46,710 bases of DNA. Origin: a virus. Numbering within the stretch: the stretch's first letter is position 1; every line of letters starts with the position of its first letter. A program made the translations under genes and the position numbers. The notes under the pieces are model-generated. The model had not been told where the DNA came from. It ran no database searches and worked only from the letters and a program-made list of their open reading frames with translations. Where the stretch lies: positions 1 through 46,710 of IMG/VR virus record IMGVR_UViG_3300036760_000063; one strand, given 5' to 3'. Positions 14,603 to 46,710 of this stretch are shown one piece after another.

Positions 14603-14603
14603 T

Positions 14604-14675
14604 GGACCATTAGCTCAAAGGCAGAGCATTCGGCTCATAATCGAACGGTTGCTAGTTCGAGTCTAGCATGGTCCA
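14604..14675 (+). tRNA. tRNA-Met(CAT)
   Basis: Perfect cloverleaf: acceptor GGACCAT/ATGGTCC (7 bp), D-stem GCTC/GAGC, anticodon stem TTCGG/TCGAA with loop CTCATAA (anticodon CAT), T-stem GCTAG/CTAGC with loop TTCGAGT, discriminator A. CCA is not encoded. The G1-C72 pair argues against an initiator tRNA; it may be elongator Met or, if the C34 is modified, Ile(AUA), which an AT-rich phage would need. Confidence 0.93.
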
Positions 14676-14740
14676 TCACGTTGCAAAGATTGTGCGATTT
14701 ATCATACACAATACATGAAACAATATAGAAAGATGGCAAA

Positions 14741-17210: not shown

Positions 17211-17285
17211 GCTCCAGTAATCCAATTGGCAGAGATAAAAGCCTTAAAAGCTTTCAAGGTGTCAGTTCGACTCTGACCTGGAGCA
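17211..17285 (+). tRNA. tRNA with anticodon TAA (Leu, UUA) and short variable loop
   Basis: Acceptor GCTCCAG/CTGGAGC (7 bp), D-stem ATCC/AGAT with one mismatch, anticodon stem AAAGC/GCTTT with loop CTTAAAA (anticodon TAA), six-base variable loop, T-stem GTCAG/CTGAC with loop TTCGACT, discriminator A, CCA encoded (17286-17288). UUA is the favoured Leu codon here. Bacterial tRNA-Leu normally has a long variable arm; this one does not, so identity is uncertain. Confidence 0.85.
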
Positions 17286-17300
17286 CCATTTGGAGAATGA

Positions 17301-17572: not shown

Positions 17573-20068
17573 TTGTCTAATTACGTTTCTGGCATTGGCT
17601 CTGTGGAGCCTAAATTATTTATTTTAGGAGAAGCGCCAGGTAAATATGAGGATGAACAGGGAATTCCATTTGTAGGTCCAACAGGACAGATGTTAGATGG
17701 ATTTTTATTTAAGGCTGGAATAAGACGCTCTGATTGTTATATAACAAACGTTATCAAATATCGTCCTCCCCTAAATGATCTTAAGAAACTTCATTTAATA
17801 GGAGTAGATATTGGTCAATCAATGCGGGAGCTGTGGGATAATGAGATTAATAAACTTCATCCAAATTGTATTCTTGCTGTTGGAGATTTAGCCCTTCAGG
17901 CAGTTTGTGATGTTTCAGGAATATTAAATTATAGAGGATCTATTTTACTTGCTAGAGATGGTATCACAAAAGTAGTTCCAACTATTCATCCAGCCACTCT
18001 GTTATCTCATACAAACAGCGAAGAATCTTCAGGTGGATTAAGCTGGGTATATACAAAGCTTATTGAGGCAGATATTATTAGAGCCGCTGAAGAATCATTA
18101 ACTAAGATTCTCATATTACCTGAGAGAACTCTAAGCATAGCACACAACTCTCTTGATGTTCATAGGTTCTTCCGTGAATATGAAAAGCTCGATAAAGCAG
18201 CAGTTGATATTGAATCTATCAATTGTATTCCTGTTTGTGTTGGCTTCGCTTTCAACAAACAACATGCTATCTCTATTCCTCTTCTTCGTAGCATTGGCTC
18301 TAACAATCTTACAGATATGGGAGATAATGAGTTAGATGAATGTTGGAGGGAAATTGACAAGCAGCTCAGAAGAGTCAAAATCATTGGACACAATTTCATG
18401 TATGACGAATATAAACTTGGACTTGTGGGATTTAGTACACCAAAAGTTTGGTCTGATACACTCATTAAAACTAGAGTTATTTTTCCAGAATTACCCGACA
18501 AACGATTGTGTGTTGTTAGTTCGTTATGGACAAGAGAACCATACTATAAAGATGACGGAAAAGAATTTAAGCTTGGTAAGTTCAAGTTTGAGAACTTTCT
18601 TAGATACAATGCAAGAGATTGCGCTATCGAATTTGAAGTAGATGAAGCTCAAGAAGTTGATTTAATAGAATTAGCTGACAGGTTTTCTGTCCCGCTCAAA
18701 GAATATTATTATGATTATATGATGAAGAAACATAAATTATATTTAAAATTTCAAATGACAGGTAAGAGAGTTGATTTAGCACGTCAAAAAGAATTAAAAA
18801 TTAAATATACAAAGATGCAAGAAGAAATTCATATAAAACTTTGTGGGCAGATAGGTCAAGAAATTAATGTAAAAAGTTATCCACAAATGTTTGAGCTTCT
18901 TTATAAAATTATGAAATTTAAAGTTCGTAAACGCAATCCTACAAGTGAAGATTCTATTGTTGCTCTTCTTGGAAATACAAAAAAGAAAGAACAAAAAGAA
19001 ATTCTTAATAATGTCCTCGAAGAGCGTAGAATTAGAGATCAAAAAAGTCGTCAAATCTCTTTCTGTCCTGACTATGATGGTAGATGCAAATCAGCTTACA
19101 ATATTTCAGCAACTGAGACTTGCCGTTCTTCTACGGGGATTCTTAAAAAACCTCTCAGACCAAAAAAAATTGGACTTGCCGATCACACAATCTCCGCCCA
19201 CGGACGATTAGGAAAAGATATAAAAAGTATGTTTATTGCTGATGAAGGAAAGGTTATTATCCAAGTTGATGCTTCACAAGCTGAGGCTAGAGTTGTGGCT
19301 GTTCTAGCAGAAGACTGGGAATTGCTAGCAGCATTTGATAGGATAGATATACATAGGCGAACGGCTGGTTTAATGTTTGGTTATACGCCTAAACTAGAAC
19401 TCGGAATTGATTTTTTGCATCCAATAATTGATAAACTTCCTAAAGATGGTCCTGAAAGATTTACCGGTAAAATAATTAGGCATGCTGGTAATTATGACAT
19501 GAAAAAACGTAGACTTATGACAGAATTCAATACAAACGCTCAGAAATTCGAAATTCCTATGGATATATCAGAATGGAAAGCAGGACAAATGCTTGATTTA
19601 TTTCATGCAGCAAGTCCCAAAATTAAGGGCAAATTTCATTCTGATATTAAAGATGCTATCAATTCTTCTCGTGTTATTATCGATCCTATGGGTGGGGTTA
19701 GGATATTCAATGGTAGAATGGATGATAGTTTATATCAAGAAGCTTACGCTAATATTCCACAGAGAACCGTAGCTCATTTAATTCAGGGAGCCGCACTGAA
19801 AATAGATGAAGAATTAAATGGAGATAGCGAAGTCTTATGGGCGGAGGAAAAACATGATTCTCTCACATTACAAGCTCCAGAAAACAACTGGGAGAATTAT
19901 GCGAGGCTTATGGTTAAATGGATGGAGAAGCCAATAAATTTTAGAGTATATTGTTCTCTTAAAAGAGATATAGATCTTATAATACCATGTGAAGTGGAAA
20001 TATCTAACACAAATTATGCAGAATTTAAGAAAGTAAATAAAAGTAAAATTTTTAGTGGGAAGGAGTGA
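17573..20068 (+). CDS. Fused uracil-DNA-glycosylase domain, 3'-5' exonuclease and family A DNA polymerase
   Basis: 831 residues from TTG 17573 (the first ATG in frame would remove the glycosylase motif). Residues 1-175: family-4 UDG-like, GEAPGKYEDEQG and HPATLL. 205-365: DnaQ-type proofreading, with DIES (Asp212, Glu214), HNFMYD (Asn274, Asp278) and YNARD (Tyr345, Asp349). 370-831: Pol A, motif A DASQAEAR (Asp566), motif B RFTGKIIRHAGNY (Arg629, Lys633, Tyr641), motif C KHDS (Asp762, with Ser in place of the usual Glu). Family-4 UDGs are historically known as SPO1 DNA-polymerase-related, so the fusion has precedent. Confidence 0.95.
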   Translation: MSNYVSGIGSVEPKLFILGEAPGKYEDEQGIPFVGPTGQMLDGFLFKAGIRRSDCYITNVIKYRPPLNDLKKLHLIGVDIGQSMRELWDNEINKLHPNCILAVGDLALQAVCDVSGILNYRGSILLARDGITKVVPTIHPATLLSHTNSEESSGGLSWVYTKLIEADIIRAAEESLTKILILPERTLSIAHNSLDVHRFFREYEKLDKAAVDIESINCIPVCVGFAFNKQHAISIPLLRSIGSNNLTDMGDNELDECWREIDKQLRRVKIIGHNFMYDEYKLGLVGFSTPKVWSDTLIKTRVIFPELPDKRLCVVSSLWTREPYYKDDGKEFKLGKFKFENFLRYNARDCAIEFEVDEAQEVDLIELADRFSVPLKEYYYDYMMKKHKLYLKFQMTGKRVDLARQKELKIKYTKMQEEIHIKLCGQIGQEINVKSYPQMFELLYKIMKFKVRKRNPTSEDSIVALLGNTKKKEQKEILNNVLEERRIRDQKSRQISFCPDYDGRCKSAYNISATETCRSSTGILKKPLRPKKIGLADHTISAHGRLGKDIKSMFIADEGKVIIQVDASQAEARVVAVLAEDWELLAAFDRIDIHRRTAGLMFGYTPKLELGIDFLHPIIDKLPKDGPERFTGKIIRHAGNYDMKKRRLMTEFNTNAQKFEIPMDISEWKAGQMLDLFHAASPKIKGKFHSDIKDAINSSRVIIDPMGGVRIFNGRMDDSLYQEAYANIPQRTVAHLIQGAALKIDEELNGDSEVLWAEEKHDSLTLQAPENNWENYARLMVKWMEKPINFRVYCSLKRDIDLIIPCEVEISNTNYAEFKKVNKSKIFSGKE

Positions 20069-22483: not shown

Positions 22484-25400
22484 TTAAGGTCTAAGCTTTT
22501 TAAATACTGAGGGTTTCTGTTTTCTCTCAGGATAATTTTGTTCTCCGGCTCCTAATAACATTAAGGGAGGTAATCCAATAGCTTCAGCAAATGATGGATC
22601 GCTCATCATAACATTATACATATCCTGAGAGAAGATGGATACAAATCGTTTTGTCGTTTCGGTAGCTATATTTTTATTAGTTCCAAATCTATCAATATAA
22701 TTTCCACCAGAACTAAACTGTTTAGTACTAGCAAGATCATATCCTAAACCAGCCATAGGACTTAATTTATTAGTAGCAAAATTCCAAATCAGTTCGGGAA
22801 TACTTTTTTCGTTGTAAGCTCTTTTCTTGCCATGTCCCATTCTACTTACTTCATTTAGAATTCTAGCCGCTAAGACTATAGGCTGCTGGAATCCTCCATT
22901 AGGATCTAAAACATTTCCACTATTAAAACGACTCTTCATAAAATCAGAACTTAAGATATTATAACTTACGGTTGCACCTGCTAAAGTTCCAAGAGTGTTA
23001 ATTATAGTACTAGCTCCAGCAACAGCAAAAGCTGATTTGATTGCTTCTTTCCTAGTAAATGGATCTAAATCCATATAGAATTTAGGATTGAGAGCAGTTA
23101 AACGAGATGATAATAATCTAGGAGACCAGAAATATGTATTTAATGTTGTAGCAATAGGTTCTAATTTTCCTAATTTTCCACGACCAGTAAATACATTAAT
23201 ATAATTAGCGATATCTTCAGCTATTTTAGTTGGTATCTTTATTGTTTGCACATTGCCATTATTATCTAATATATAATTTCCTTTAGCATCTCTTAATTGT
23301 TTTTTAACAAAAACTTCATTTCCAGTTTTCTCGGCAAGTTCTGTAAGATTATCAAATAAATCCGATCTTAATTTATTTAGACCTCCAATATATGATCTTT
23401 CAGAGGCATCTACAATATCTTGAATATATAAACCCTTAATTCCTTTAGGAATATCACCAACATAATTATTCATAAATGCTTCTTCACCATTAATAAGTCC
23501 TCCGGGCTTTGCTAAAAATAAGCCGGATTCCCTACCCAAAAGATATTTTGGTCTATCTTCAATAGATTCCATAGCAGCCTTAAAATATTCTGGTTTAGCA
23601 AAATATTTTAACTGCTCTCTGACTGCATTTCTCCATTCTGATTTATGAATAAATCCAATACCTTGCTTTAAAGGAAATGATAAGTCTGTAGATGACATCA
23701 TAGCCTTCATAGTATTAGCTGTTTTAGCTAATTTTAAATTAACAGCTCCAATTCCTCCGTGCATTTCGACAATTCTACTAGCAAATCCATTACCAAATAC
23801 ATCATCTAAAATTCTTAACTCATTACTTTGTGGAAGTTCTTCTCCATTAAGAAGCTTGAATAGAGCTGTATAACCACGAGCTTTCTCGCCTTCCGTAATT
23901 TTAGCTCGTTTAACTGCTGTAAATAAGCTATCAGCTTGTGGTTGAGTCATCCGTAATTTTTCTAATTCAATCTTCCCAAATTCTCCTTTTAATTTACTTA
24001 GACTCTTAGCGGCTCCGGAAACTCCGACATCTTCAACATCTTTAAAAGCAGCAAAACGACGTACCCTTTCAGTTTTATTAATAATATCTTGTTGTACTCT
24101 ATTCTCTTTAATTTTACCCATTGAGTTGAAGAGTTTATCTACGGCTGAAGAAGCTCCTTTTCCATCTGATTTATCATCGCTTGGAGTATTCTTCTTTCCC
24201 CCTCTGGGAGTTTCTGACTTAATTCCCATTGAGCTGAGAAAATCCTCTGTAACTTCTGCTCTCCCCCTTGATTCTTGATAGATGTGTAATAATTTCTGAA
24301 CGTCTGAACTATATTTCCCAGTTCCGTCTGTGATGAGGCCATGTAATCTTTCTGCTGCATCAAGGGTTTCTGAAGGACCATATTGTGTAAATATTTCACC
24401 TAATCGTTTAATAAAATCCATATCATGATTAGCATTTAATCCACCTTGATCATCTAATTCTTTTAAGAATTCTGTAAGAAATTTCCCTATTCTAGGATCA
24501 TCCATTCCTTTCAAATCTTTTAATGAAAATCCTATAGCTTTTGCTGAAGAAATATGAGCTGCTTCATGTAAAGCTGTTATAGTGCTGGTTAGAGCGGCAT
24601 CATATGGATTTTTTGTAGCTATTGGCTGAAGCCAATTAATTAAAATTGTAGATTTAGCTCCCCTGGTTTTTGGATTTGGTATATAAATGCCTAAAGTAGA
24701 TTCATCACTAAGTAATAATCCAGTTGCCTCTAATTTATTTGCTCGTTCATTATTTTCATAACTAGAATCCACAACGCTAACAATATCTTCAAGCATCTGA
24801 TCAAAATGCTTAGTTACATTTTGAACTGTTGGATTAGTATAGAATGTTGCTTTCTCCTTAAAATTTAATCTCTCACCGGCATCAAATATCACTCCTTTTC
24901 GTATCATTCCAGGAAGATTTGGAAAATCAGCTAAAGAGTTATAAAGATCTATTAATTTATTCTTTTTCTTCTCTTGCGCTCCTGAAACTATATTCTTATT
25001 AACCCATTCACTAATAGCCCTACTTACTTTAGTACTAATCTGTTCTCGATTAGCTCCAAAAGGATAATCATCCATTCCCTCTTCTACAGTAGCACGAATA
25101 TTAGCTACAATATTTTTAGGAACTCCATCCATATTAGATCCATAATATCCTGCTCCAGTATCCTGATACATTCCTTTATTTAAGAAATGTAAGTTATATC
25201 TATCTGTTGTAGCATTTGGTTTATTTTCATAATGAATATCAATATCAGCTCCAGGAATACTAATTTTATCCTGAATCGGTTGTGGAGATTTAGCAGTATG
25301 AACTGTTACTGCATCTTGCATCTCTTTTAATCGAGTTTCCATATATTTATCAGTTGAAGCTGTTCTATTTTTTCCTTTAAGGTATTCTTTTGTTAATTCA

Positions 25401-27565
25401 GAATTATAGCTTTCTGCAATATGCACAGGAGATGTGATAGATGGAGAATTTTCAGTTACATTTTTAACATAATTTGATACACCGTATGCGGATGTATCAT
25501 TATCAAAGTATGTCTTAACTATAAGTCCTGTTTTTTCATTGGGATCTAATATTTCTCTATTTAATTTATTTCCTTTAATTTGATCTTTCATTTGTGAGGG
25601 ATTTCCCTCAAAACTATATTTAACTTTCTGTCCCTTTTCACTAACAATAGATTCAACCTGAACATACTTACCGGATAGCATCGGTGCCGCTTTAGCAAAA
25701 CCAAACCCACCCGATGCGGATTCTTCTCCAGTTTTACCAGTTTTTCCAACATCAGTGAATATAGTATATAATTCTTCTGACGTCATTCCACGACCAGCAT
25801 CCTTTACAATTATTGCTGATCCTTTGTCCTTAGTTCCAGGTATATCAATATGTCTATTAACAACAACATGAATAGGTTCTGTCTGTCCTATAATTCTATG
25901 TTCATCAAATGAGTTTTGAAGCAGTTCTTTAACAGTCACTAATGGACGAGGTTTAGTATATAGTGCAGTCCCAATAACATCTAATACTTTAGGATCAGCT
26001 CCTCCCATTGCAATATTAGGTCGTTCTTGTCCTTTAATAGGGACCTTCATGAATTGAATATCTTCATCAGGCTTAACTTCAGGAGGCTCTAATCCCATCT
26101 TCTGTTTATTACGAGCTATGTCATATAAGATATCATCACTATTTCTGACTTCTTTAGTTGAAGATTGAGCATTATGAACAGCTTCATCTTCAGGAAGAAC
26201 AAATTCTCTAGGAACGTTAGCTTTGTTAATTTCTTCAGTTTTCTTCTCAAAAGGATTAACAAATTCAGATTTCTTAATAGATTCTTTTGCAGATTCTTTA
26301 TCAAATATAGTCTTTATTCTATTTTCTCTTAAAGTTTGAATTTTAGATTCGGTAGGGAGATCCAATCCCATTTTCTGTTTATTTCTTGCAATATCATATA
26401 ATATATCTTCAGAATTCTTAACGGAAGATTTTTCAGGTTGAGCATTAACTGCTTCATCTTCTAGAAGAGCAAATTCTCTAGGAACATCAGCTCTATTAAT
26501 AGCCTCTTTAGGCTGTCTAATTGACAATTCTCTAACTTGAACTTCAGAAGGAAGATCGCCTTGTGTTCTATAAGGAATTTCACGAGATTGACGAATAGGA
26601 AGTTCTTTAGATGTTTGTGTAGCAGCCTTTAACTGTCTAATAGACAAGTCTTCAACTTGAGTAACAGGTCTAACTCCAGAAGAATCCCTTTCATTATAAC
26701 CAAAATCACGCGGAGTAACTTCAGGTTGACGAATAGACTCACCAGCAAACATGCTGGGATCTTGATCCATTCTCTGTTGTTCTGGAGTTCTTTTATTTTC
26801 AGCAATATTTTCTTGAGCTATCCTATTGAATCTTGATGGTTTATTACTTTCTAAATAATTAGCTGTCTTCTCATCTTCAGATATAACTCCACGCTTACGA
26901 AGATCACTCATTGACCTTCTAATTGATGCTTTAGGAATGTTAGTTTCTAAAGATATTTCCGACGCCGTTCTTGGAACTCCCTCACGAGTTAATGCTATAG
27001 CAACGGCATCTTGTTGCGGCGTTGATTTCGTGAAATTTCTATGTATTGGTTCTCTAATAGGAAGTCCATCAGGAACTCCTACTTCTGGAGCTTCTCCACC
27101 ACCAATAAAACCACCGATGCCAGCGGCTGAAGCTATTGGTCTAGCCCATTCATTATAAAGACCTTTAGTAAATCCACCTAAATACGTATCAGGTTCATGC
27201 TTAATTCCTATTTCTTCTGTGTTAGGAAGAACAGATTCCCATCCAGGATCTTGACTAATTATATGTCTTCTGAGATATGGATGTGTAGATTTATTTTCAT
27301 CATCCTTTTCTCCAACTATTACATCTGCTAAGAATTTATCTAATTTTCTTTTTAAATTAAAATTTGGATGTTCAGTTAAAAACTGCTTTGCTTGAGCAGG
27401 AATAGCCTTAGTAACATCAAGTTTATCTCCAGGTAATAAAGCAGATTTAATTCTAGAAAATGCAGAAGATTTAATCTCTTCTTCTTCATCTGGAATAAAT
27501 GATTTAGGAACAGATTGATCTTCTTCATCTTCATCAGGTATAAATGATTTAGGAAATTGAGCCAT
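22484..27565 (-). CDS. Giant polyvalent-type virion protein with winged helix, GHKL ATPase and HEXXH motif
   Basis: 1693 residues, last gene of the late unit. In order: two PKSFIPDE repeats (5-30); Gly-rich hydrophobic segment (about 140-155); winged-helix domain (179-230); Pro/Gln-rich linker with two long repeats (about 358-400 and 452-491); GHKL (Hsp90/MutL-type) ATPase from 506, with N-box ELLQNSFDE, G1 KDAGRGMT and G2 GGFGFAKA; HEAAH zincin motif at 1000-1004; helical middle; C-terminal segment around 1498-1540 that is hydrophobic and resembles ends of large polyvalent phage proteins. Such proteins are usually ejected into the cell with DNA. Roles of the ATPase and peptidase are inferred. 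Confidence 0.85.
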   Translation of the reverse strand: MAQFPKSFIPDEDEEDQSVPKSFIPDEEEEIKSSAFSRIKSALLPGDKLDVTKAIPAQAKQFLTEHPNFNLKRKLDKFLADVIVGEKDDENKSTHPYLRRHIISQDPGWESVLPNTEEIGIKHEPDTYLGGFTKGLYNEWARPIASAAGIGGFIGGGEAPEVGVPDGLPIREPIHRNFTKSTPQQDAVAIALTREGVPRTASEISLETNIPKASIRRSMSDLRKRGVISEDEKTANYLESNKPSRFNRIAQENIAENKRTPEQQRMDQDPSMFAGESIRQPEVTPRDFGYNERDSSGVRPVTQVEDLSIRQLKAATQTSKELPIRQSREIPYRTQGDLPSEVQVRELSIRQPKEAINRADVPREFALLEDEAVNAQPEKSSVKNSEDILYDIARNKQKMGLDLPTESKIQTLRENRIKTIFDKESAKESIKKSEFVNPFEKKTEEINKANVPREFVLPEDEAVHNAQSSTKEVRNSDDILYDIARNKQKMGLEPPEVKPDEDIQFMKVPIKGQERPNIAMGGADPKVLDVIGTALYTKPRPLVTVKELLQNSFDEHRIIGQTEPIHVVVNRHIDIPGTKDKGSAIIVKDAGRGMTSEELYTIFTDVGKTGKTGEESASGGFGFAKAAPMLSGKYVQVESIVSEKGQKVKYSFEGNPSQMKDQIKGNKLNREILDPNEKTGLIVKTYFDNDTSAYGVSNYVKNVTENSPSITSPVHIAESYNSELTKEYLKGKNRTASTDKYMETRLKEMQDAVTVHTAKSPQPIQDKISIPGADIDIHYENKPNATTDRYNLHFLNKGMYQDTGAGYYGSNMDGVPKNIVANIRATVEEGMDDYPFGANREQISTKVSRAISEWVNKNIVSGAQEKKKNKLIDLYNSLADFPNLPGMIRKGVIFDAGERLNFKEKATFYTNPTVQNVTKHFDQMLEDIVSVVDSSYENNERANKLEATGLLLSDESTLGIYIPNPKTRGAKSTILINWLQPIATKNPYDAALTSTITALHEAAHISSAKAIGFSLKDLKGMDDPRIGKFLTEFLKELDDQGGLNANHDMDFIKRLGEIFTQYGPSETLDAAERLHGLITDGTGKYSSDVQKLLHIYQESRGRAEVTEDFLSSMGIKSETPRGGKKNTPSDDKSDGKGASSAVDKLFNSMGKIKENRVQQDIINKTERVRRFAAFKDVEDVGVSGAAKSLSKLKGEFGKIELEKLRMTQPQADSLFTAVKRAKITEGEKARGYTALFKLLNGEELPQSNELRILDDVFGNGFASRIVEMHGGIGAVNLKLAKTANTMKAMMSSTDLSFPLKQGIGFIHKSEWRNAVREQLKYFAKPEYFKAAMESIEDRPKYLLGRESGLFLAKPGGLINGEEAFMNNYVGDIPKGIKGLYIQDIVDASERSYIGGLNKLRSDLFDNLTELAEKTGNEVFVKKQLRDAKGNYILDNNGNVQTIKIPTKIAEDIANYINVFTGRGKLGKLEPIATTLNTYFWSPRLLSSRLTALNPKFYMDLDPFTRKEAIKSAFAVAGASTIINTLGTLAGATVSYNILSSDFMKSRFNSGNVLDPNGGFQQPIVLAARILNEVSRMGHGKKRAYNEKSIPELIWNFATNKLSPMAGLGYDLASTKQFSSGGNYIDRFGTNKNIATETTKRFVSIFSQDMYNVMMSDPSFAEAIGLPPLMLLGAGEQNYPERKQKPSVFKKLRP

Positions 27566-28392
27566 TATTTAATTCTCCATCCTGATGGAAGAGTATCACC
27601 TTCTTCAATAGTTCCAGATTCTCCATTAGGACCAATAACAGCAACTCTCTTCTTAGAACCTCTTGTAGTTTTTACAGTTTTCTTAGTCCCATCAGCATTT
27701 ATTTCAGTTGTAGTCTCAGATTCACCAGATTGATCGATCTTCTGCTGTGCAATATCCATAGCTTTTTTATGTTCTTCGCTAGTTATCTGAAATTGATGAT
27801 CTTTTTGAGCTAATTCTAATTTATGTCTTTCTTCCATAGCAGCAGCTAAATCTCTATTTGTTTGTAATCTAGCTTCAGCATTATCTGTTTTTTGTTCCAG
27901 CGCTTGCTGTGCTAATTGTATTTTCTGATTGGCTTCATTAATCTTACGTTCCATATCAGCCTGCTTATTAGCATTTATCTGATCACTCTTTTGCTGAGCT
28001 AAGTCAGCTTGCTGAGACTTAATATCTAAAGCTCTTTGTCCTAACTTTCCCTGTTGAGATAATCTCTGGCTATCAATATTTGCTTCTTGTTGTCTAATTC
28101 CTAATTGACCTTTTTCATAACCAGTCATCTGATTAGGATCTTTAGCTACGACATTATTCATTTGAGGTTGTTGCTGATTTTGAGACTGCTGCTCAGCATC
28201 AAATATACGTCTAATTCTATCTTGTTTTAAAGATAAATCAGACATAAAATTAGATTTATCTTTAAAATCTCTCATTTCTCTATCACGTAATTGATTAACG
28301 AGTTCTAGAACATCATCATCAGTTTCTTGTTTAGGCTGACCATAGATTCCAGAACCGGAAGGATTTGAGGAGAGAGAATTCATGAAGCTCAT
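27565..28392 (-). CDS. Gln-rich coiled-coil internal virion protein
   Basis: 275 residues from ATG 28392, the first after the upstream stop. Residues 30-220 are a long coiled coil rich in Gln, Lys and Glu, then a basic VKTTRGSKKR segment and a short beta C-terminus (GTIEEGDTLPSGW). Overlaps the giant gene by one base. In short-tailed phages, sets of Gln/Ala-rich proteins next to a giant one form the ejected internal core; that is the likely role. Confidence 0.7.
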   Translation of the reverse strand: MSFMNSLSSNPSGSGIYGQPKQETDDDVLELVNQLRDREMRDFKDKSNFMSDLSLKQDRIRRIFDAEQQSQNQQQPQMNNVVAKDPNQMTGYEKGQLGIRQQEANIDSQRLSQQGKLGQRALDIKSQQADLAQQKSDQINANKQADMERKINEANQKIQLAQQALEQKTDNAEARLQTNRDLAAAMEERHKLELAQKDHQFQITSEEHKKAMDIAQQKIDQSGESETTTEINADGTKKTVKTTRGSKKRVAVIGPNGESGTIEEGDTLPSGWRIK

Positions 28393-28393
28393 T

Positions 28394-29395
28394 TTAGCGT
28401 CCAAAATTGCCAATTACATTCATTTTCTGATTGTTGAGTTGTTGCTGACCTTGACCTAATTGACCAGCCTGTACTACTTGATTTCCAAAAAGATTCGTAA
28501 GAGCTGGAGTAGTTCCATATAATGATGCTTGACCTTGTATGGCTCCCATAGCACCTTGTCTATTAGATTTAGCAGCATCTAAAGCAGCTTGTGTATTAAA
28601 TTGATTAACTTGCATTTCTCTATTAGTATTGGCTTCGGCGTTAGAGGCTGCCATAGAAGCATTAAATTGATTAGTTTGTGATTGATTTGCTGCATTAAGT
28701 TCATTAGCTCGTGAATAACCTTGTGTATTAAATTGATTAATTTGATTGATTATGTCAGCATTACGCTGGTCTGCGGCTGTTTGTGCATCATTAGCTCTAG
28801 AAGATGCAGAAGCATAAGCCGGTGCCGCTGCCAATTTATTAGTAACTACGTTTTGAGCAATACCAGCATTTGCAGCAGTAGTCACATCTCCTATTTTATT
28901 AGCTTCATCACGAGCCATTTGAGATTGTACAGCATTAAAATTAGGACTATATCCACCTCCTAGTGCTCTAGCACGCTCAGTATTCTGTTGAGCATTAGCA
29001 TAAATAGAACGAATAGGAGAAATATCTCTTGCTCTAATATTCTGAATATCACCCGCTGAATATCCACCTGTTGCCGCTAAATCTGATAATTTAGCTAATG
29101 ATCCAGTTACATCTTCTGACTGTTCATATTGAGATAATTGTGGATTAATTTGATTGTAATTTACAGCAGAAGGAGATATATTACCCTGAGCTTGAACATT
29201 ATTGGAAGATATTGGATTAGCAGATATTGGATTAATAGCATAACTTTTAGCCAAATTACTATATTGCTGCATAATTCTATCATAGTCACTAGCCTGTGTG
29301 TTAGCAGCGGCCGTAAATGTAGCTGGATTACCAAACATAGAAGTTGGATTTGATGGACCAATTGAAGCTGATTGTACAACACTTCCACCAGGCAT
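28394..29395 (-). CDS. Asn/Gln/Ala-rich internal virion protein
   Basis: 333 residues, AAGGAG ribosome site. Extremely rich in Asn, Gln, Ala and Ser. A repeated INQFNTQ-type helical motif occurs at about 215-270 (INQFNTQG, TNQFNAS, VNQFNTQ), spaced by roughly 25 residues. This composition and its position before the Gln-rich and giant proteins suit an ejection (pilot) protein of podoviruses. Confidence 0.7.
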   Translation of the reverse strand: MPGGSVVQSASIGPSNPTSMFGNPATFTAAANTQASDYDRIMQQYSNLAKSYAINPISANPISSNNVQAQGNISPSAVNYNQINPQLSQYEQSEDVTGSLAKLSDLAATGGYSAGDIQNIRARDISPIRSIYANAQQNTERARALGGGYSPNFNAVQSQMARDEANKIGDVTTAANAGIAQNVVTNKLAAAPAYASASSRANDAQTAADQRNADIINQINQFNTQGYSRANELNAANQSQTNQFNASMAASNAEANTNREMQVNQFNTQAALDAAKSNRQGAMGAIQGQASLYGTTPALTNLFGNQVVQAGQLGQGQQQLNNQKMNVIGNFGR

Positions 29396-44077: not shown

Positions 44078-44416
44078 CTAAGCTTCTTTCTCAATTCCGA
44101 GTTCATGCTCTAAACTTTCTACATCTTTAAGATTATCTGGTCTTCCTAAATATTTAGCTTCTGTTAATATCTTAGCTTGCTGTCTATCTTTCTCTTCTAA
44201 TGCTGCTCTGCGGCGAGAAAATAAACCTGAAGTCTGGACAACAGGATTAAGCTCCACTAGTGGATTTTCATATGTCTTTGGTGAAACTATCTTTAATAAT
44301 ATTTCCGTTAATTGTCTCTTCTCATCATTAACGAATAAAAGTTGTTCTTTTAATATCTGACAACTCTTGCATGTTTCATAAGGACGGCCAAGAAGAAAAC
44401 ATAAAAATCTAATCAA
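44078..44416 (-). CDS. Small conserved-type protein downstream of TerL
   Basis: 112 residues from TTG 44416, with AAGGAGA seven bases upstream, overlapping the TerL stop. N-terminal hydrophobic FLCFLLGRPYETCKSCQILKEQL, with CKSC pair, then heptad helix, then charged. A recurring small gene next to TerL in environmental podoviruses; role unknown. Confidence 0.65.
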   Translation of the reverse strand: MIRFLCFLLGRPYETCKSCQILKEQLLFVNDEKRQLTEILLKIVSPKTYENPLVELNPVVQTSGLFSRRRAALEEKDRQQAKILTEAKYLGRPDNLKDVESLEHELGIEKEA

Positions 44417-46710
44417 TGAACTCTCCTTGCAAATCTTGAACGACGGCTAACAGGAACACAATCATTAAGTGTTAGAGCATTCTGCCGCTCAATAGTTTCC
44501 ATTCTTCTATACATTCTAGTTGTATCGTTATCAACACTATATTCAGATAATATAATTTGTTTCTTTTCGGCCAAACTAAGATTTCCTAATTCTCCCATTA
44601 TAAATTTCTTCGCTGCTTTGCAAAAATATCTTAAATCGTCTAGGGGGTCATCGCCATCAAACTCTGCAATATCTTCGATTTTCTTATCATCATAAATTGC
44701 CATTGGAATGGTATCAATTAATATCTTGCATGTATCAAAAATCTGCAATATTGGAAGATTATCTTCTTCAGGTTCATCATAGAATTGCTTCTTATAATTT
44801 TCTAATGCAGTAGGACCATAATTTCTATAGATTTCCTGGGCCGTTGACATATCATAAAATTCATTTTTAGATTTTAGGCTAATTTTCTTTTCCCAGCGTA
44901 AAAAATCGTGAATAAGTTGTAATCCAGCTACACGACTTCCAGGTGTATTCTCAGAGCTATTAGGAACTAAATCAGAATACTTCTGAAATTCATCACAAAT
45001 TAATTCTCCACCTCGACTCTGCCAAGCACTACCACATAGAACAGTATGTACTGGAGTTTCATTATTTTCATTATGAATTTCACGAATTTCACTAGCCCAG
45101 AACGGAATATCTCTTCCATACCAAGCCCGCTCCCTATAAATATAAACTTTATGATTCGGAGCAATGGCTCCCCACATTGCATAACACATTGCTCTCTTTC
45201 CCCAGTCGATAGATAGTATTTTTGGCCACCATTCGGGTATTTGAAATTGTTTAATGACATGTAATGCGTTGTCAGGCTCACCAACAAATCGCATTGGCCT
45301 AAAAGTTGTAAAAACTGATCCTTTAAATGCGTGCCAATCTCCATATCTCTTAGCTCTATATTCTGCTTCAGAAACTGTCTTTAGAATTTCGAGCTTCTTA
45401 ACGTATAATGGATCATATTCCATTCCATAAGGATTATCCTCTGCTTTAGCTGGAATAAATATTCTTGTTAGTCCTGTAGATTTATCGCGTATAACTTTTA
45501 AGCCATCTTCATATGGCTTTACGAATCTATTGTAAACAAAAGTTTGCCCAATACCACCCGGATTAGAGCCGTTCCTAACAATAGCAATATTAAAAGAGCT
45601 AGAAGGCCGAACACGGCTACCAACCATATAATGATAGGGATACGAAGAAAAGTGAGTAAGTTCATCGAAAGCGCAATAATTATACTGACTGCTATCATAC
45701 TGAACAATATCACCCGCATGTTGGACATGACCAAAGTCCTGATATGAATTAAATTCTGGCCACTCCCAAGAATGTTTTTGTTCATTGTATTTAGCTCCTG
45801 TTTTAGGATAATATTCTTTACTTAAACGTATGATTTCCCGTTCAAGATCGGGGAATTTATTACGGAGAATAATACCCTTATAGCCTCTAAATTTATAAAA
45901 TCCTCGGAATAAAGGTAATAATGTGAGTATCCAAGAGTTATGAGTAGGGATACAAGATTTTGTAACGAGATAATAGTCATCTTCGACTTGGATACATTTT
46001 GTTTCAATTTTATTAATTTTCTCAATTTTTTCAATATAATGAAAAGACGATCTTTTAGTCTCTTCCTTATTAAGATGATCTAATTTCCTATCGAGCTTAA
46101 ATACTGGATAACTACTAGACCATTTAATTAGATAAGCTCTTTGTCCAACTCTTCGTTCATTATGATCCTTATTATAATAAGATGGATCTTTATCACTTTT
46201 CGTACATTTAATACCTAATGAAGATGCAAGCCTAAAGACTCCATCAGCTATAGATTCAATGATATTACAAAACTCAACTCCACCATCATCATCGCAAGTT
46301 CCATCAGAGTCCATCAAACCCTGTAATAAATCTCTTCTTTGTTCTTCTGAACCTAAAAAATATTCTTCCGGTATATGTTTATTATTTAATAAATTTAATT
46401 TTTTAAGATTATCTATTAAACCAAAAGATTTATATACAATTTCTCCACTCATTTTTTCAATATCGTAACCTAATCTACCAAAATTAAATTGAGCATCAAA
46501 TTTATCTCGGTTTCCAATAGCAATATATCCAGCATCTTTGCTACCATCTCCAAGCCAATAACCTAAAACATATGGATGAAGAATAAATTCTCTTTTTTCT
46601 AACTGAATAGGTTCACAAACTTTAATAGCATGATTAGTTCTTCCTCTGCCTGTAAGTTGTGTATTATATAATTCTTTAGTCTTACTTAATGCTCCATCAT
46701 ATATTGTTCT
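44413..46710 (-). CDS. terL: Terminase large subunit, C-terminal part with intein C-half; 5' end cut by window edge
   Basis: Frame open from 46710 to the TGA at 44413; the methionine at 46452 is internal, not the start. Intein part (45937-46710) ends in PTHN before Ser-Trp. Then the ATPase core continues: LRNKFPDLEREI, Walker B CAFDELTHF (about 45655-45681), NGSNPGG coupling motif, and the RNase-H-like nuclease with SIDWGK (about 45195-45215). Joined with 1-1454 this gives a complete TerL. Confidence in identity is high. Confidence 0.93.
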   Translation of the reverse strand, partial: RTIYDGALSKTKELYNTQLTGRGRTNHAIKVCEPIQLEKREFILHPYVLGYWLGDGSKDAGYIAIGNRDKFDAQFNFGRLGYDIEKMSGEIVYKSFGLIDNLKKLNLLNNKHIPEEYFLGSEEQRRDLLQGLMDSDGTCDDDGGVEFCNIIESIADGVFRLASSLGIKCTKSDKDPSYYNKDHNERRVGQRAYLIKWSSSYPVFKLDRKLDHLNKEETKRSSFHYIEKIEKINKIETKCIQVEDDYYLVTKSCIPTHNSWILTLLPLFRGFYKFRGYKGIILRNKFPDLEREIIRLSKEYYPKTGAKYNEQKHSWEWPEFNSYQDFGHVQHAGDIVQYDSSQYNYCAFDELTHFSSYPYHYMVGSRVRPSSSFNIAIVRNGSNPGGIGQTFVYNRFVKPYEDGLKVIRDKSTGLTRIFIPAKAEDNPYGMEYDPLYVKKLEILKTVSEAEYRAKRYGDWHAFKGSVFTTFRPMRFVGEPDNALHVIKQFQIPEWWPKILSIDWGKRAMCYAMWGAIAPNHKVYIYRERAWYGRDIPFWASEIREIHNENNETPVHTVLCGSAWQSRGGELICDEFQKYSDLVPNSSENTPGSRVAGLQLIHDFLRWEKKISLKSKNEFYDMSTAQEIYRNYGPTALENYKKQFYDEPEEDNLPILQIFDTCKILIDTIPMAIYDDKKIEDIAEFDGDDPLDDLRYFCKAAKKFIMGELGNLSLAEKKQIILSEYSVDNDTTRMYRRMETIERQNALTLNDCVPVSRRSRFARRVH
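45937..46710 (-). other. Second allele of the TerL intein, C-terminal half
   Basis: Homologous to 126-920 but diverged at both DNA and protein level (for example CTKSDKDPSYYNKDHNER against TTTIKAWAGSDKDPNENH). Keeps the LAGLIDADG motifs (YVLGYWLGDG; QGLMDSDG), the block-F Cys (TKCIQVE) and PTHN. The final 127 bases are identical to 794-920. Confidence 0.9.
46584..46710. repeat. Terminal overlap, right copy
   Basis: Right-hand partner of 794-920; 45812-46583 is a diverged copy of 1-793 with about 21 bp net length difference. Confidence 0.9.

Follow-up and report, generated by a model that had tools for sequence, protein, structure and literature searches.

What could a phage do with one giant late protein that carries both a GHKL ATPase and a zinc-protease motif, and do these two parts, together called the dyad here, belong to each other? 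An earlier note on this DNA had proposed such a protein, of 1693 residues, in a window of 46,710 bases, which is the whole stretch analysed and an entire IMG/VR viral record. The gene is indeed an intact single ORF of 1693 codons at the end of the late operon. The gene and two of its neighbours are located as follows.

22484..27565, minus strand: the whole giant late protein of polyvalent type, 1693 aa; a single open ORF whose syntenic late-operon position is kept in relatives
27565..28413, minus strand: neighbour g282, candidate co-ejected protein (putative role); adjoins the giant gene in L008-L011, L017, L019 and L026
28394..29395, minus strand: neighbour g333, candidate co-ejected protein (putative role); retained at this position whether or not the giant carries the dyad

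The minus-strand neighbours of the giant gene include a major-head-protein match and the terminase large subunit, and the plus-strand genes of the window include an SNF2-type helicase, a UDG-PolA fusion and a DUF3987 protein; the giant gene is therefore placed last in the late block. Over the extent of the loci, dyad carriers and relatives lacking the dyad show one gene order ahead of the giant gene: g506, g398, g357, g333, g282. The neighbouring structural proteins g805 and g506 gave no matches in named phages. The label 'virion-type' is putative and drawn from the gene position and the relatives.

Other features of the window were also observed. A single ORF at 17573-20068 (plus strand) contains a uracil-DNA glycosylase superfamily domain (E 2e-25) and a family A DNA polymerase (E 7e-26), and tRNA genes for Met(cat) and for Leu(taa) lie on the plus strand at 14603-14677 and 17211-17288. 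The terminase large subunit, with a LAGLIDADG/Hom_end intein-like insert, is found at 1-1640 and 44413-46710 (both minus strand). Both ends of the record fall inside this gene, and the copies there are not the same (74% identity across 936 bp). This suggests that the record is a nearly complete genome, circularly permuted, in which the insert is present as two alleles.

Relatives were collected by profile. A scan with the single GHKL sequence of the window found nothing, and alignments were needed. The first relatives came from a scan with the C-terminus and a scan with a two-member module; a seven-member module scan of uncultured viral contigs then yielded 41 loci. After near copies and one truncated locus were dropped, 33 distinct giant ORFs (1306-4428 aa) were aligned with the window protein, giving 34 proteins that include ORFs cut at the 3' end (L056) and at the 5' end (L043).

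The ATPase part of the window protein is composed of the following elements.

25466..26017, minus strand: GHKL ATPase domain, aa 517-700, matched by Pfam, PHROG, profile and AlphaFold/Foldseek searches
25904..25930, minus strand: N-box K546-D554 (E547, N551 and D554), within KELLQNSFDE, aa 546-555; 31 or more of the 34 proteins keep K, E, N and D
25781..25801, minus strand: G1 box DAGRGMT, aa 589-595 (D589-x-G-x-G-M-T595); D589 and G593 kept in 33 of 34
25685..25747, minus strand: G2 box and lid, GKTGKTGEESASGGFGFAKAA, G607-A627 (K611, GGFGFAKAA); K611, G619, G622 and K625 kept in 33 of 34
24851..25465, minus strand: transducer or Hsp90-middle-like domain, aa 701-905; the model matches chains spanning the N and middle domains of GyrB, TRAP1 and Topo VI-B
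25043..25051, minus strand: N839-R840-E841, corresponding to the (N/S)RE motif found in rIIA and at aa 335 of HtpG, registered by motif and not by structure superposition; R in 34 of 34

Several searches agree on this domain. Pfam HATPase_c_3 matches residues 544-663 (E 9e-7, passing the curated cut-off) and PHROG RIIA matches residues 518-707 (E 8e-10). The seven-member family profile matches TRAP1/Hsp90 in the PDB (E 5e-8), a rIIA profile (E 7e-16) and a single HtpG sequence (E 3e-7), and rIIA is the closest GHKL by profile. The AlphaFold model (pLDDT 75) is matched by Foldseek to TRAP1, Hsp90, GyrB and Topo VI-B with E values down to 9e-12 (TRAP1), which identifies a Bergerat fold. Among viral models it matches many rIIA proteins, the top match being an unnamed chain of 1404 residues (E 2e-16). 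The tblastn search with residues ~506-930 against 50,697 phage records was weak, and most of the matches listed are annotated as rIIA, with best E values of 5e-3 to 9e-3. The N-box, G1 and G2 named in the earlier note are all present, with the N-box Asn, the DxGxG of G1 and the Gly-rich lid of G2, together with G3 (TG, residues 679-680), and these motifs are nearly all conserved across the 34 proteins. The YPF..(N/S/Q)RE motif is paralleled at aa 335 of HtpG and in the rIIA proteins compared; by this motif match, not superposition, we take its R to be the ATP-sensing arginine of Hsp90 middle domains.

The second half of the dyad follows the transducer and overlaps its end.

24221..24943, minus strand: WLM/SprT-like zincin domain, aa 875-1115; AlphaFold pLDDT 84.8, pTM 0.83; WLM, YgjP and SprT matches
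24554..24568, minus strand: HEAAH, aa 1000-1004; H, E and H invariant in 34 of 34
24425..24427, minus strand: H1047 (NANHDMDF), predicted as the third zinc ligand and preceded by an insertion; the column holds H in 28 and E in 6 of 34

The HEAAH motif of the earlier note thus keeps its H, E and H throughout the alignment and is accompanied by a third ligand column. In the window protein 42 residues separate HEAAH from H1047, and L022 has a similar insertion. Together with the GHKL motifs, this means that the catalytic Asn, Asp and Gly as well as the zinc ligands are present in relatives. Neither outcome that the earlier note would have taken as a refutation, missing GHKL profile matches or loss of these residues in relatives, was thus observed. 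A chance HEXXH was rejected on this conservation in 34 of 34 and on the enrichment of the motif behind the GHKL: 41 HEXXH, some of them second motifs further downstream in the same protein, fall 380-900 aa behind the GHKL start, a band of 17,160 residues in total, versus 5 in the 64,385 residues that these proteins have outside it.

The class of the zincin is less sharply defined. Pfam matches among the 34 members are to WLM in 13 (best E 7e-5; the zincin domain of the window itself has no WLM match), YgjP in 6, SprT in 3 and MPTase-PolyVal in 1, the last at E 0.12, and the zincin was accordingly not assigned to MPTase-PolyVal (PF18818). The PDB sequence-profile search placed Wss1p first (E 0.014), with another WLM protease and SPRTN among the matches (E 0.014 to 0.45). 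Structure prediction produced a confident model of this region, but its Foldseek matches in the PDB are weak: the best is 3dl1, a putative metal-dependent hydrolase (E 0.09), and although 3dl1, leishmanolysin and BepA, the best three, fit a zincin, all have E 0.09 or worse. The zincin call therefore rests on the motif, its conservation and sub-threshold WLM/SprT matches. We regard the HEXXH domain as a zincin with good confidence, and as WLM/SprT-like with moderate confidence. In L032, L033, L034, L038, L046, L047, L049, L050 and L052 the dyad zincin is followed, some 200-300 residues later, by another HEXXH; that of L033 weakly matches MPTase-PolyVal (E 6e-3).

The GHKL and the zincin are tightly linked. 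The zincin is present in 33 of 33 aligned GHKL giants of uncultured phages, found by a main scan with two short peptide patterns that zincin-less GHKL giants or motif-diverged stand-alone dyads could escape. Of these 33, 24 were matched by the GHKL part alone; all 24 carry the zincin, and in them it was not selected for, since the confirming scan match covered only that part. In the 33 giants the HEXXH lies 418-616 aa behind the GHKL start, except in L056 (868), where the scan placed the match start further upstream. Moreover, GHKL and zincin distances correlate (Mantel r 0.89, a value reached by none of 2000 permutations), indicating that the two halves co-evolve in the sample. In a midpoint-rooted tree the 34 dyad GHKLs lie on one side, and four rIIAs and HtpG on the other, of a 97/96 branch. 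The 34 distinct proteins thus point to a single conserved module and not to two independent curiosities; independent fusions are ruled out by the constant pairing and co-evolution in the sample.

Within the sample the dyad was seen solely inside giant multidomain proteins, never alone. Searches of named phages by tblastn with the window GHKL and three relatives returned rIIA-like or other GHKL proteins, unannotated Listeria records, or nothing, and tblastn against plasmids found no dyad, giving lone ATP-binding or HtpG matches. The bacterial scan matched two MAG contigs (L020 and L021). A Neisseriaceae contig carries both dyad halves on either side of an N gap, and the other 22 Neisseriaceae-family genomes searched are without the dyad; a Woesearchaeota contig has a near-identical GHKL start with a stop. 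Both are probably misbinned phage contigs. An origin in a defence system was also considered and rejected, PADLOC giving weak partial matches and nothing more.

The remainder of the protein is formed by a large C-terminal domain and an N-terminal region.

22487..24151, minus strand: conserved C-terminal backbone domain, aa 1139-1693 (555 residues), with no Pfam name; common to dyad-bearing and dyad-lacking relatives
27485..27553, minus strand: short motif PKSFIPDE, twice in tandem, aa 5-27; corresponds to WxPP[DSE]YAxP pairs in relatives
26840..27022, minus strand: probable winged helix-turn-helix, aa 182-242; Pfam TrmB (E 1.2e-3, under the cut-off), phrog_1123 and phrog_37740 (E 2-3e-4)

The backbone occurs with the dyad in L008, L014, L015, L017, L018, L019, L022/L025, L023 and L026, without a recognised dyad in L002, L003 and L009-L013 (L002, L012 and L013 being incomplete), and also in UOF78006 of MW202497 (E 5e-30). 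Since L003, L009, L010 and L011 share the C-terminus and the synteny and have no dyad, the loci indicate that the dyad is swappable cargo, not core. Further exchange of cargo is seen in a GNAT-looking stretch, noted by eye, common to L009 (no dyad) and L019 (dyad); L009 also has a ParB-like stretch. Dyad-bearing relatives carry, in addition, LPD38, LPD39, LPD1, LPD5, InPase, RadC, ddrB-ParB or lysozyme. Because these domains are marks of polyvalent proteins, the dyad giants are placed among these, and the polyvalent character suggested by the earlier note agrees with the window protein itself, which unites at least two unrelated enzymatic domains (GHKL and zincin) in one large phage polypeptide. 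A Pfam scan found no named LPD in the window protein, and its C-terminal domain did not match one LPD38 protein in a weak single-sequence comparison. Judged from sequence, the identities of the parts are very probably correct.

The tandem WxPP[DSE]YAxP-type motif tends to open the giants (L009, L010, L011, L014, L015, L017-L019 and L026), and an extra copy lies just before the cargo block or the C-terminal domain in L017, L018, L019 and L010; it is possibly a packaging or docking motif. The winged helix put forward earlier survives as a weak match at about residues 182-242, but it does not belong to the dyad module, since the dyad-lacking L010 has a similar stretch. An imperfect duplication was noted by eye in the translation of the linker before the GHKL, at window 26072-26227 and 26330-26500 (minus strand), as DVPREFALLEDEAV...ILYDIARNKQKMGL and its copy.

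GHKL domains dimerise and close on ATP, as established for Hsp90, GyrB and MutL, and topoisomerases and MutL carry effector parts after the transducer. Since the protease of the dyad is likewise placed after the transducer, ATP closure may position or feed it. In our explanation the giant polyvalent protein would be packaged and ejected together with the genome, and host ATP would close the GHKL dimer, as suggested by the class of fold and by the conservation of the catalytic residues. The closing clamp would activate or feed the neighbouring zincin, which might cleave host proteins, for example exclusion or defence factors, where the phage enters or on its DNA as it comes in. Ejection itself could be the switch, because ATP is presumably scarce in the virion and abundant in the host. 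What the sequence itself shows is the domains with their catalytic residues intact, their constant pairing in the sample, their exchange as modules and their place in a late operon. ATP-gated proteolysis in the host is, to our judgement, evenly balanced between true and false, and the explanation as a whole falls slightly below that. The broader proposal, an undescribed class of virion-delivered ATP-gated metalloproteases in giant polyvalent proteins, borne by phages of many lineages, inert in the virion and cutting specific proteins at entry, is tentative and rather doubtful.

The main rival is self-processing, in which the dyad would cut its own giant polypeptide, read ATP as the signal of being inside a cell and free the other domains, like small-molecule-triggered autoprocessing. 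The confinement of the dyad to giant multidomain proteins in the sample, with no stand-alone form found by tblastn in named phages or plasmids, speaks for it, as do the processing of P1 DdrB and the autoproteolysis proposed for the MPTases of polyvalent proteins (PMC5512222). However, the second HEXXH of some dyad proteins (weakly MPTase-PolyVal-like in L033) could do such processing, and the backbone relatives L003, L009, L010 and L011 do without the dyad, which argues against self-processing as its sole role; we consider this reading unlikely.

The closeness of the GHKL to rIIA, and the growth of T4 on a lambda lysogen with RexAB that rIIA/rIIB allow (PMC9391042), would fit a rIIA/Hsp90-like clamp or chaperone whose ATPase does the main work, be it counter-exclusion, the remodelling of membrane or DNA, or the refolding of proteins after ejection, and whose zincin is auxiliary or substrate-binding. 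Yet all 34 proteins, divergent as they are, retain HEXXH and the third ligand, as expected of a working protease, and three phage rIIA-type proteins have no HEXXH, so the zincin appears as an addition to a rIIA-like GHKL; a clamp or chaperone is improbable. The late operon beside structural genes, and the N4 vRNAP region with MPTase that is needed for encapsidation (PMC5512222), could also be read as an intra-virion or assembly role, exercised during head maturation or packaging in the cell that produces the phage and not at entry. This is very improbable, the dyad being dispensable in phages with the same structural synteny.

Our analysis highlights a GHKL engine coupled to a zinc protease, repeatedly, in phage giants, with catalytic residues kept. 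If active, the dyad would be an ATP-timed protease brought in by phages, and its targets would lead to proteins important in the first minutes of infection. To our knowledge, the biochemical action of rIIA, a classic phage protein, is still unclear; the dyad gives it a relative with a built-in second enzyme, assayable in vitro. The usual partners of GHKL domains are topoisomerases, MutL, Hsp90 and kinases, and no description of a GHKL-metallopeptidase pair in phage giant proteins was found in the open-licence literature.

Compared with known systems, the dyad GHKL is homologous to that of rIIA (T4-like and the Schitoviridae 'RIIA lysis inhibitor') and shares its (N/S)RE transducer motif. The rIIA-type proteins compared, in contrast, are stand-alone, have 718-863 codons and lack HEXXH; since the dyad GHKL lies inside a 1693-aa protein and across the supported branch from the rIIA GHKLs, membership in rIIA was rejected. 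A jumbo-phage survey describes rIIA as a GHKL with a variable C-terminus and links it to counter-defence (PMC7824862). The ATPase and middle/transducer fold is that of Hsp90/HtpG/TRAP1, GyrB and Topo VI-B, but the window protein has no recognised Hsp90 C-terminal dimerisation domain and the zincin comes next. The zincin shares the HExxH...(G/S)H...F arrangement of WLM/Wss1, SprT/SPRTN and YgjP, whereas its similarity is weak, its N-terminal extension larger and its position here always behind a GHKL. UOF78006.1 of MW202497 (uncultured Caudoviricetes ctf1B273) has the homologous backbone, but no GHKL in a Pfam scan and a HELGHH peptidase motif of its own. According to the 2017 paper on polyvalent proteins, packaging or injection applies to some of them, and their MPTases are argued to cut themselves as well as, in some cases, possibly to serve as effectors (PMC5512222); its main text has no occurrence of GHKL, Hsp90, HATPase, rII or WLM. 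The window protein resembles polyvalent proteins in being giant, multidomain and late, with exchangeable enzymatic cargo and a conserved C-terminal backbone, and it differs in its zincin, WLM/SprT-like and not MPTase-PolyVal-like, and in a C-terminal domain without a Pfam name. Polyvalent proteins as a kind are already known, and what may be new is the GHKL-zincin dyad as their cargo.
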